From: Candidatus Rokuibacteriota bacterium
GTDB lineage: Bacteria > Methylomirabilota > Methylomirabilia > Rokubacteriales > CSP1-6
DNA: 64,000 nt
Reading direction: 5' to 3'
NCBI GenBank assembly: GCA_003220495.1
Contig: QHSP01000020.1
Coordinates: 1 to 64,000 of the forward strand
Shown: positions 29,839-32,545 of the stretch, piece by piece
Layout: every line of letters starts with the position of its first letter
Position numbering within the stretch: the stretch's first letter is position 1
Notes under the pieces: generated by a model
What the model was told of the DNA's origin: nothing
The model's input: only the letters and a program-made list of their open reading frames with translations
Databases searched by the model: none
Position numbers and translations under genes: made by a program

Positions 29839-31332
29839 TCAGCTAGAAGTGGCCGCGGTCTTCGCGTCGAGCGGCAAACCGGCGTCCGCCCAGCTGCTGA
29901 GCCCGCCCTTCAAGATCCTGACGTCTCGAAAGCCCGCCTCGCGAAGCTGAAGCGCCACCCGGGCGCTCGTTGCTTCGTCGGGTCAGGAGCAATAGGCGAC
30001 GACCGTGCGATTCGCGTCGACGTCGAGGGCTCGGATGCCCGTCCCGAGCTCGTCGGGCGAGAGGTGGCGCGCGTCCTGGATCTTGACCGGACTCTGGGCG
30101 TACGTCGCCCCGTCGCGAACGTCCAGGATGATCGGCGGCGCGTCCGAGGAGGCCTCGATGAGCCGCATCACCTCTGACGGCCGGATGCGATAGCGGTTGC
30201 GGCGCGAGCGCATCACCAGGACAACCCCGGCGACCGCGACGACCACCAGGGTCACGACGGCCGCGATCGGCATCCACGGGAAGGGGCGAGGCGGCGGGTT
30301 TTTCGCCTCGGCCATCATGCGGCGCACGTCGGTGAGATCGGGGAGGAGTCGGTTCGCCTCCGCGAAGTGCGTCTCGGCACGGCCATAGTAGCCCCGGAAA
30401 AAGTCTTCGAGCCCCGCGTGCCACGCGGTGTTGAACCGGCTGACCTCGTCGAGCCGGACGTCGGTGCCGTTCAGGAACTCGCGGACCGCGGCCGACGGGA
30501 TCACGAAGTTGAACCCCTGGACGACGGTTTCCTGATTGCCCGCCTCGAGGCTGACGAACGTCAGAACGCCGAGGACTTCTCCGCCGGATCCGACGGCGGG
30601 CCCGCCGCTGTTGCCCCACGCCGCCGGTGCATCCACCTGGAGCACCGGCCGATTGTTGGTGTCTTGCTTGAAGCCGGAGATCGCGCCATTCGTGACCGAC
30701 GCTTCGACCTTTGCCGACGCATTCAAGAGCTCGTGGGTCAGCACGACCTCGGGGAAGCCCAAAATGTGGATCTTGTCGCCGATCCTCGTGTTCGAAGAGT
30801 CGCCCAGAGTCAGCGCCGGCATGTCGGCAGCCTCGAGCTTGAGAAGCGCGAGGTCGCGACCCGACATGCCCTTGCCGGCAACCGGCGGGCTATACTTCGC
30901 CACGGTTGCGGACAGCCGCATGCCATTCGAGAGAATCACGGAGATCGACGGGTCGAGCTTGATCTTCGCGCGCGCAACCGCGGCGGCCAGCGCCTCGTCG
31001 TTCACGTCCCCGCAGGCCTGACGGACGCCGCGCTCCAGCAGCTCCTGCGTGATCGTCTGCTTCGGCCGATGCGCCGACGAGACGACATGGCCGTTCGTGA
31101 TCACCCAGCCGCTTGGATTGATGAACCAGCCGGTCCCGTTCTCGCGGAAGGGTGGGGGCGTGACCTGCTTCTTGTCGCCGGTCGGGCACGTCACGGTGAC
31201 CTCGGCCGTGACCTCGGAGACGACGAGCGCAACGGCCGGCTTCGCTCGAAGCAAGACCTCCTGAACCGTGGGGGCCGCTTGGGCGAGACAGGGAACCGCG
31301 AGGAGCATCACGCTCGCGAACCATCGACGCAT
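29839..31332 (-). CDS. Membrane-anchored trypsin-like protease-rhodanese fusion with in-frame UGA (candidate selenoprotein)
   Basis: Domains: signal peptide 1-19; trypsin-like (S1C) protease about 24-285 with His82 (VITNGHVV), Asp160 (SGRDLALLKLE) and Ser242 (WGNSGGP); a helical stretch 295-345; one membrane helix 353-374; rhodanese domain 381-495 (PIILDVRDGATYAQSP). At codon 450, inside the rhodanese active-site loop, there is TGA: the loop reads VVAYCS-UGA-PDEATSARVA. Translation beyond it continues as clear rhodanese (LREAGFRDVRILKGGLSSW) to the TGA at 29839. Read as Sec, the motif is Cys448-Ser-Sec450; related loops usually carry Cys there. A SECIS-like hairpin follows. If UGA is a true stop, the product ends at 29983 and lacks the rhodanese C-terminal half. 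Which end the cell uses cannot be decided here. Confidence 0.8.
29942..29977 (-). promoter_or_regulatory. SECIS-like hairpin after the UGA
   Basis: Reading the minus strand, an outer stem CGAAGC/GCTTCG (29977-29972 with 29947-29942) and an inner stem AGCGCC/GGCGCT (29967-29962 with 29956-29951), both 6 bp and perfect, are separated by a 4x3 internal loop. The apical loop is CGGGT. The apical loop begins 21 nt after the UGA, and G is the second loop base. Both fit the published rules for bacterial SECIS elements as I remember them (16-37 nt distance, G in the first two loop bases). High GC alone can give such hairpins, so this is support, not proof. Confidence 0.6.
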
Positions 31333-31357
31333 CCTCAAAATTCTATACCGCGCCAAA

Positions 31358-31398
31358 TGCAAATAAGAAGGCTCCAGGGGCCGGCCCCTGGAGCCTGG
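31358..31398 (-). terminator. Intrinsic terminator of the repeat-protein gene
   Basis: A perfect 26-bp palindrome (13-bp arms, 31370-31395) begins GGCTCCAGGGG on either strand. It lies 28 bases after the stop of the repeat-protein gene. On the minus strand it is followed by TTCTTATTT, a modest T-rich tract, so it should end minus-strand transcripts. It is 38 bases before the protease start, so leaky readthrough could still reach that gene. Confidence 0.65.
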
Positions 31399-31423: not shown

Positions 31424-32257
31424 TTACTTCATCAGGCCCATCGCCTCGACGGCCTTCGCCTTGGCGGCGTCCATGTTTCCGGCCTTGCACGCAGCCTCGG
31501 CCTCCCGAACCAGCTTCACCGCATCGCTACCCGACGAAGACTTGGCACCGGCCAGCGAGCGCGGGGCCTGGATGTCCTGACCCGCCCGCGGAGCCTGGAT
31601 GTCTTGGCCAGCGCGCGGAGCCTGAATGTCTTGGCCAGCGCGCGGAGCCTGAATGTCTTGACCCGCCCGCGGAGCCTGGATGTCCTGACCAGCGCGCGGA
31701 GCCTGAATGTCTTGACCCGCCCGCGGGGCCTGGATGTCCTGGCCGGCGCGCGGCGCCTGAATGTCCTGACGCGAGCCGGCTAGCGATCGGGGCGCCTGGA
31801 TGTCCTGACCGCGCGGGGCCTGGATGTCCTGACCGGTACGCGGCGCCTGAATGTCCTGGCCAGCGCGCGGAGCCTGGATGTCTTGACCCGCCCGCGGCGC
31901 CTGGATGTCCTGGCCGGCGCGCGGCGCCTGGATGTCTTGACCCGCCCGCGGGGCCTGGATGTCCTGGCCGGCGCGCGGCGCCTGAATGTCCTGACGCGAG
32001 CCGGCGAGCGACCGGGGCGCCTGGATGTCTTGACCGCTACGCGGGGCCTGGATGTCCTGGCCAGCGCGCGGCGCCTGAATGTCCTGACGCGAGCCGGCGA
32101 GCGAGCGCGGCGCCTGGACATCCTGGGCCTTCGAAACCTTCTTCAGCATCGCCTGAGCCTGGCTGACTTCGGCCGGGCACTGAGTCTGCGCGTCGACGAC
32201 AGGCGCCACGGTCGCGACGACTGCCACGCTCATGATTGCCGCCAAAAATCTCTTCAT
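31424..32257 (-). CDS. Secreted tandem-repeat protein (QDIQAPR repeats)
   Basis: A 277-residue exported protein. Signal peptide MKRFLAAIMSVAVVATVAPV ends near VDA; a short helix with a Cys (CPAEVSQAQAMLKKVSKAQ) follows. Residues 45-233 are about 21 copies of a 7-residue core QDIQAPR with a 2-residue AG linker; in four places the linker is the longer SLAGSR/SLAGAK. The C-terminal helix has another Cys (AVKLVREAEAACKAGNMDAA). The two helical ends could pair through a disulfide, with the repeats as an extended loop. Start ATG 32257 is preferred; ATG four codons earlier is possible. Function unknown; the repeats show no metal or sugar motif. Confidence 0.75.
   Translation of the reverse strand: MKRFLAAIMSVAVVATVAPVVDAQTQCPAEVSQAQAMLKKVSKAQDVQAPRSLAGSRQDIQAPRAGQDIQAPRSGQDIQAPRSLAGSRQDIQAPRAGQDIQAPRAGQDIQAPRAGQDIQAPRAGQDIQAPRAGQDIQAPRTGQDIQAPRGQDIQAPRSLAGSRQDIQAPRAGQDIQAPRAGQDIQAPRAGQDIQAPRAGQDIQAPRAGQDIQAPRAGQDIQAPRAGQDIQAPRSLAGAKSSSGSDAVKLVREAEAACKAGNMDAAKAKAVEAMGLMK
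31559..32125 (-). repeat. Coding minisatellite, 27-bp unit
   Basis: About 20 tandem units encoding QDIQAPRAG; single changes give SG or TG linkers and one unit has only G. Longer 39-bp units ending SLAGSR recur at intervals, giving a higher-order pattern. Units differ mostly at silent positions, so the array is not very recent, but the protein motif is held almost constant. It is inside the repeat-protein gene and stays in frame because units are multiples of three. Confidence 0.9.
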
Positions 32258-32545
32258 CAGTCTTTCCATTTCCCCTGGTTTGGTTGGATCGGTTCGATCA
32301 GTTCACCGCGGCCAGCGTGCTCCGTTGTCCCCCTCTCGGCGTTGACGTCCACTCGGTGGCTACGACTCTCGGCCTGAGATTAGGAGCAACCGGAATGCCA
32401 GCCGCGCACTGTCGTGAAGGACGAATGAAACAAGCTACTTATTCAGAATTCTCAGCTGCGCTAGCTGGCGTTGTGTCCTGTCCCGCCCCAACAGGGGGTC
32501 CGGCATTCTGCCCGTCGCTCCCCTTGTGGTAGCCTGACACCCAAC

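Follow-up and report, generated by a model that had tools for sequence, protein, structure and literature searches.

The window analysed here, a stretch of 64,000 nucleotides from a Candidatus Rokuibacteriota bacterium, includes a reverse-strand gene that is interrupted by an in-frame UGA in the active-site loop of a rhodanese domain. The original prediction had read this codon as selenocysteine (Sec) in a protein combining a trypsin-like protease with a rhodanese. The question is therefore whether the UGA ends the protein or encodes Sec and, if Sec is incorporated, what a Sec-rhodanese attached to a protease may do.

Organisation of the protease-rhodanese gene

The features of the locus are listed in Table 1. 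The predicted product begins with a signal peptide, and homologues of the protease-rhodanese protein align with it over the full length in about 60 genomes. The Trypsin_2 match (residues 66-256), together with the His-Asp-Ser triad, places the N-terminal part among the trypsin-like (chymotrypsin-fold) serine proteases, and no homologue with sequence covering those sites has lost the triad. The nearest solved structures to this domain are HTRA1, DegS and DegQ. No PDZ domain was found in the protein by Pfam search, and the cut-offs of the HtrA/Do models (TIGR02037, DegS, DegP) were all missed (68.5 bits versus 416).

Table 1. Features of the protease-rhodanese locus and the region upstream of it, with coordinates in the window.
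Feature	Coordinates	Strand	Basis
Predicted selenoprotein gene, read from 31332 to 29839 (498-codon ORF, terminal stop counted), for a signal peptide, HtrA/trypsin-like protease, TM helix and Sec-rhodanese	29839..31332	-	ORF, Pfam, full-length homologues
Signal peptide MRRWFASVMLLAVPCLAQAAP	31270..31332	-	by eye
Trypsin_2/HtrA-like protease domain; triad His82, Asp160, Ser242	30565..31137	-	Pfam PF13365, E 2e-23
Single membrane helix at about residues 354-376, flanked by MRSRRNRYR on the C-terminal side	30205..30273	-	hydropathy
Rhodanese domain (residues 393-483), loop YC448-S-U450-PDEATSARVA	29884..30156	-	Pfam PF00581, E 2.5e-11
In-frame UGA, codon 450, predicted to be read as Sec	29983..29985	-	TGA column shared by homologues
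bSECIS hairpin	29942..29977	-	folding, codon constraint, pair counts
Upper stem, 5' strand (GCGCC)	29966-29962	-	part of bSECIS hairpin
Loop (CGGGU)	29961-29957	-	part of bSECIS hairpin
Upper stem, 3' strand (GGCGC)	29956-29952	-	part of bSECIS hairpin
True stop codon TGA, codon 498	29839..29841	-	ORF reading
-10-like element TATAGAAT, directly before the ATG, recurrent in relatives	31340..31347	-	by eye
12-bp GC-rich terminator-like hairpin between the repeat and protease genes	31369..31396	-	sequence
Secreted repeat protein (QDIQAPR)n	31424..32269	-	conserved neighbour directly upstream of protease gene

The protease is followed by a single hydrophobic helix, with the hydropathy maximum of 3.05 at residue 356, and then by the rhodanese domain, which scored 44.4 bits against a cut-off of 22.2 for PF00581. 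The match runs across the TGA, in agreement with the earlier placement of this codon in the active loop. The profile match and the catalytic Cys in the loop identify the domain as a rhodanese, and this residue (Cys448), two positions before the TGA, is present in 51/51 TGA genes. Given the signal peptide, the single helix and the positively charged MRSRRNRYR flank, which by the positive-inside rule should face the cytoplasm, the protease is predicted to lie in the periplasm, and the rhodanese with its Cys-x-Sec site in the cytoplasm. The same topology had been proposed originally. An AlphaFold model built from a three-sequence alignment had a pLDDT of 44 and was unusable.

Conservation of the in-frame UGA

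The homologue search covered 148 genomes, 61 of which contained relatives. The codon at the column aligned with codon 450 is TGA in 51 distinct genes from 46 genomes and Cys (TGC or TGT) in two homologues; the in-frame UGA is thus aligned with Cys or Sec, as in bacterial selenoproteins. The remaining homologues, many of which form one paralogous group, have mostly Ser and otherwise Thr or Glu. These data agree with the expectation that the column would hold Cys or UGA in homologues, TGA or Cys being found in most of them and Ser in most others. Since Glu (GAA) occupies the column in one homologue and Ser in many paralogues, the fold can do without Sec.

The TGA genes were found in Rokubacteria-type genomes and in a second family of the class, and their sequence identity ranges from 84% down to 33–36%, the latter in the other family. 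In the tree, the codon states cluster, with 9 state changes as compared with about 18 when the labels were shuffled. A scan of genome contigs revealed only two close loci, the sequences of which match two genomes already in the comparison. Because the TGA recurs in 46 genomes, an assembly error or a pseudogene was ruled out.

Selenocysteine machinery

The earlier reading depends on a Sec system in the same genome, and selA, selB, selD and a tRNA-Sec gene were all found in the host genome (5.98 Mb, 98% complete). The tRNA-Sec gene scored 69.8 bits, was called tRNA-SeC with anticodon TCA (UCA) by ARAGORN, and is clustered with selB (356 bits) and selA (591 bits) on contig C152. The selD gene lies on contig C1 and has an in-frame TGA of its own in an N-terminal CAGU site.

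Among the 46 genomes with the TGA form, selA, selB and tRNA-Sec were not detected in six (G029, G038, G039, G051, G055 and G091), one of which is rated 100% complete. In the host genome, a stretch of no more than 5 kb holds all three genes, and therefore a single missing contig would remove them together; such a gap is probably the cause of their absence in the six genomes. As selA is carried by almost every reasonably complete genome of the class, a correlation between the TGA form and the presence of selA is uninformative.

The bSECIS hairpin

The hairpin begins after a 5-nt spacer, and its loop CGGGU occupies positions +22 to +26 (21 nt after the UGA) with G at loop position 2. Published bSECIS criteria are a stem of 4-16 bp, a loop of 3-9 nt with G in the first two positions and lying 16-37 nt from the UGA, and an MFE of <= -7.5 (PMC13188914). 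The stem of 5-7 bp, the distance of 21 nt and the energy of -11.3 kcal/mol for 40 nt fall within these limits. The two-tier hairpin described previously stood in its spacer, loop placement and G at position 2, but only the upper tier is conserved; the lower tier (CGAAGC/GCUUCG) varies among relatives. The folding energy (z = -2.6 for 55 nt and +0.2 for 40 nt) was set aside as weak proof of a SECIS element, and synonymous constraint and pair counts were used instead.

The four stem codons (AGC GCC .. GTG GCG) show zero synonymous variation in the TGA genes, being Ser AGC in 51/51, Ala GCC in 51/51, Val GTG in 45/45 and Ala GCG in 51/51. By comparison, codon entropy is never below 0.47 bit at the gene's 108 other conserved columns with 4- or 6-fold degeneracy, and the stem codons vary in the 19 non-TGA homologues. 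The upper stem forms all five of its pairs in 49/49 distinct protease sequences with TGA versus 3/24 sequences without it, and loop position 2 is G in 67/67 TGA sequences. Since the upper-stem pairs never vary within the protease family, the RNA evidence there is synonymous constraint and not covariation. Three Sec-rhodaneses that differ in architecture from the protease fusion show a compensatory change from GCGCC/GGCGC to GUGCC/GGCAC; the compensated second pair, U-A for C-G, results from two synonymous changes (AGC to AGT and GCG to GCA).

Selenocysteine or stop

If UGA 450 were a real stop, translation would yield a truncated protease-TM protein whose rhodanese is incomplete, and the frame beyond the UGA would be a relic. 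UGA is the usual stop of the neighbouring genes and the six genomes lacking detectable Sec machinery would fit such a reading, but the frame 3' of the UGA is open for at least 42 and up to 64 codons and conserved as protein in 50/51 TGA genes (the exception, L068, runs to the contig end). Its codons vary mostly at the third position, as in coding sequence. Rhodanese motifs continue past the UGA, with a C-terminal stretch that includes ILKGGLSSWADAGLPLDAK, and the SECIS codons are frozen in the TGA genes only, which makes termination at codon 450 highly improbable. In the gene studied, the frame does continue to a second TGA as first described, with 47 sense codons in place of the 45 then counted.

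The UGA might instead be read through as a different residue such as Trp or Cys, owing to suppression or a local code change. This would suit a clearly translated frame and the Cys of two homologues, but is most improbable: neighbouring genes end in UGA, which also rules out code reassignment; the genome has a complete Sec system; the bSECIS hairpin goes with TGA and has been lost from most forms without TGA; and Trp was found at this column in none of the homologues.

UGA-Sec recoding is thus very well supported by the comparative sequence data. With high confidence, the gene is predicted to be a genuine selenoprotein gene encoding a single-pass inner-membrane HtrA-like protease with a cytoplasmic Sec-rhodanese. 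Standard annotation would end such genes at the UGA and halve the rhodanese.

Related Sec-rhodaneses and paralogues

A search with the NF041203 model revealed four rhodaneses with an in-frame TGA in the host genome, namely the protease fusion, L114, L117 and L119. L114 (1477-2442, reverse strand, contig C71) and L117 (874-1875, forward strand, contig C153) consist of a DedA/VTT part and a C-terminal Sec-rhodanese; no publication that brings together DedA, rhodanese and selenocysteine was found in a literature search. In L119 (around 1501-1818, contig C49), the UGA replaces the catalytic Cys itself (VFY-U-TCPH). Relatives have further DedA fusions as well as true stand-alone NF041203 members. 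In a genome of the same order (G058), a Sec-rhodanese with the stem GUGCC/GGCAC is joined to an adenylate/guanylate cyclase catalytic domain (L148).

The host genome also carries a protease-TM-rhodanese paralogue (L109; 6338-8140, reverse strand, contig C62) that has Cys-Thr-Ser in the loop, followed by a cNMP-binding domain. Ser-form paralogues from the second family (L129-L131) end in a PilZ domain, recognised by Pfam in L131 and by similarity in L129 and L130. The tree of the rhodanese domain, with 102 columns, is too short to tell one from two origins of the protease fusion.

The upstream repeat gene

The protein encoded upstream of the protease gene has a signal peptide, a variable copy number of repeats ending in Pro-Arg, and conserved Cys-containing ends. 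Its match to an NB-glycoprotein Pfam model was taken as a composition artefact. The repeat gene is located upstream on the same strand, about 90-190 nt off, in 12/12 main-clade loci examined; it was found neither beside the Ser/cNMP paralogue nor in one divergent TGA clade. At one locus in the second family (L107), the gene upstream of the protease encodes another type of repeat protein, (APKGTEGPDVRK)n.

A strong GC-rich hairpin occurs at the equivalent place in 11/11 related intergenic regions compared, and this conserved terminator-like hairpin between the genes makes a repeat-protease operon doubtful. A scan of the intergenic region with the sigma-70 consensus found no promoter. The TATAGAAT element is a possible promoter of the protease gene itself, which would give a near-leaderless mRNA. 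The terminator-like hairpin and the TATAGAAT-like element suggest that the repeat and protease genes are two transcription units.

Possible role of the Sec-rhodanese

According to the mechanism proposed here, UGA 450 would be decoded by SelB and tRNA-Sec via the hairpin just downstream, which would give an active loop Cys-Ser/Thr-Sec-Pro in which Cys448 may take up sulfane sulfur or oxidation. The adjacent selenol (CxU, capable of forming a selenenyl-sulfide) could make the site fast and reversible, and the state of this cytoplasmic site might be relayed through the membrane helix and a helical linker and so set how active the periplasmic protease is or how it assembles. Such a sensor-to-protease signalling step, suggested by domain order only, is put forward tentatively and at somewhat less than even likelihood. 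Consistent with it, the cytoplasmic part of protease paralogues includes a cNMP-binding or PilZ domain, and one relative has a Sec-rhodanese of the same type joined to a nucleotide cyclase. With regulatory domains in the cytoplasm, protease control from inside the cell would therefore be the most economical reading.

The product could also be a selenoprotein in which the rhodanese acts as a local enzyme of sulfur or peroxide chemistry at the inner membrane face, the protease being an anchor or unrelated and no signal crossing the membrane. The same Sec-rhodanese type does occur alone and on differing membrane partners (DedA/VTT), as expected of a local enzyme, and this possibility comes close to an even chance; against it are the second-messenger-binding domains of the protease paralogues and the cyclase fusion in a relative, which are typical of regulation, and the fully conserved protease triad.

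The repeat protein is a possible partner or substrate of the protease, and processing of the QDIQAPR repeats gated by the Sec-rhodanese may be considered. Such processing would accord with the signal peptide and the Pro-Arg ends of the repeats, and with the position of the repeat gene, which closely precedes the protease gene in the same orientation at all 12 main-clade loci examined. It is nevertheless unlikely, given a separate transcription unit behind the conserved terminator-like hairpin and the absence of the repeat gene beside the Ser/cNMP paralogue and in the divergent TGA clade. Further, the HtrA-like protease has Pro236, Ala or Ser and no Asp at the S1 position, and hence Arg specificity is not predicted.

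Returning to signalling, the YC-x-Sec rhodanese, which carries its SECIS within it, could serve Methylomirabilota/Rokubacteria as a portable input module on the cytoplasmic side that is placed on several outputs (protease, DedA, cyclase) and provides selenium-based redox/persulfide control. This wider proposal is a speculative one, and we hold it with some doubt. If true, it would define a class of selenoproteins for signal transduction, not catalysis, and inside-out control of a periplasmic protease. Together with the DedA and cyclase fusions and the Ser paralogues that bear cNMP/PilZ domains, the protease fusion makes testable a possible role of selenocysteine as a sensor residue governing a protein across the membrane.

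Comparison with known systems

Sec-rhodaneses are known from surveys, as the original prediction had stated; five rhodanese selenoprotein forms are catalogued in a 2026 review, form 3 being CxU, i.e. NF041203 (PMC13188914). Members of NF041203 (rhodanese_LYCAU, 'rhodanese-related (seleno)protein') are likewise membrane-near and have Cys-x-Sec at the same loop position, and two true members found in relatives have the same SECIS type. However, they are about 130 aa in length and lack a protease. The protease fusion scored 79.6 bits against the NF041203 cut-off of 115 and is therefore a relative and not a member.

TsoB (NF045694), a rhodanese/DsbD fusion-like selenoprotein, also includes a rhodanese within a larger Sec fusion, but has two Sec residues (UxxxxU) and a DsbD-like part, and the protein studied here scored 17.7 bits against its cut-off of 805. 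The DedA/VTT-Sec-rhodaneses L114 and L117 share the Cys-x-Sec-P-N/D-E-A-S/T-SARVA loop and the SECIS stem, and have a DedA membrane part in place of the protease. With the HtrA/DegS proteases, which are membrane anchored or periplasmic, the protein has in common the protease domain with the His-Asp-Ser triad; unlike them, it has no PDZ domain, and its anchor lies C-terminal to the protease and connects it to a cytoplasmic rhodanese. Sec was likewise predicted together with a trypsin-like domain in selenoproteins of the GOS survey (trypsin-like and MucD; PMC2398784). The protease domain itself contains the Sec in the GOS trypsin-like family, and the motif of MucD is CxxU (PMC2398784), whereas Sec lies in the rhodanese here.

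The words protease, trypsin and peptidase occur neither in the 2026 review (PMC13188914) nor in deep-Sep. The review cites a Methylomirabilota MAG with 63 predicted selenoproteins, which may include the protease-rhodanese family. As far as could be checked in non-exhaustive searches of open-access literature, Sec-rhodaneses with CxU are already known and the fusion to a protease is absent from the searchable surveys, in line with the earlier impression that the combination of protease, helix and Sec-rhodanese was undescribed. The family thus adds to the known selenoproteins the predicted architecture protease - membrane helix - Sec-rhodanese, which is family-wide in uncultured soil bacteria and extends to a second family.
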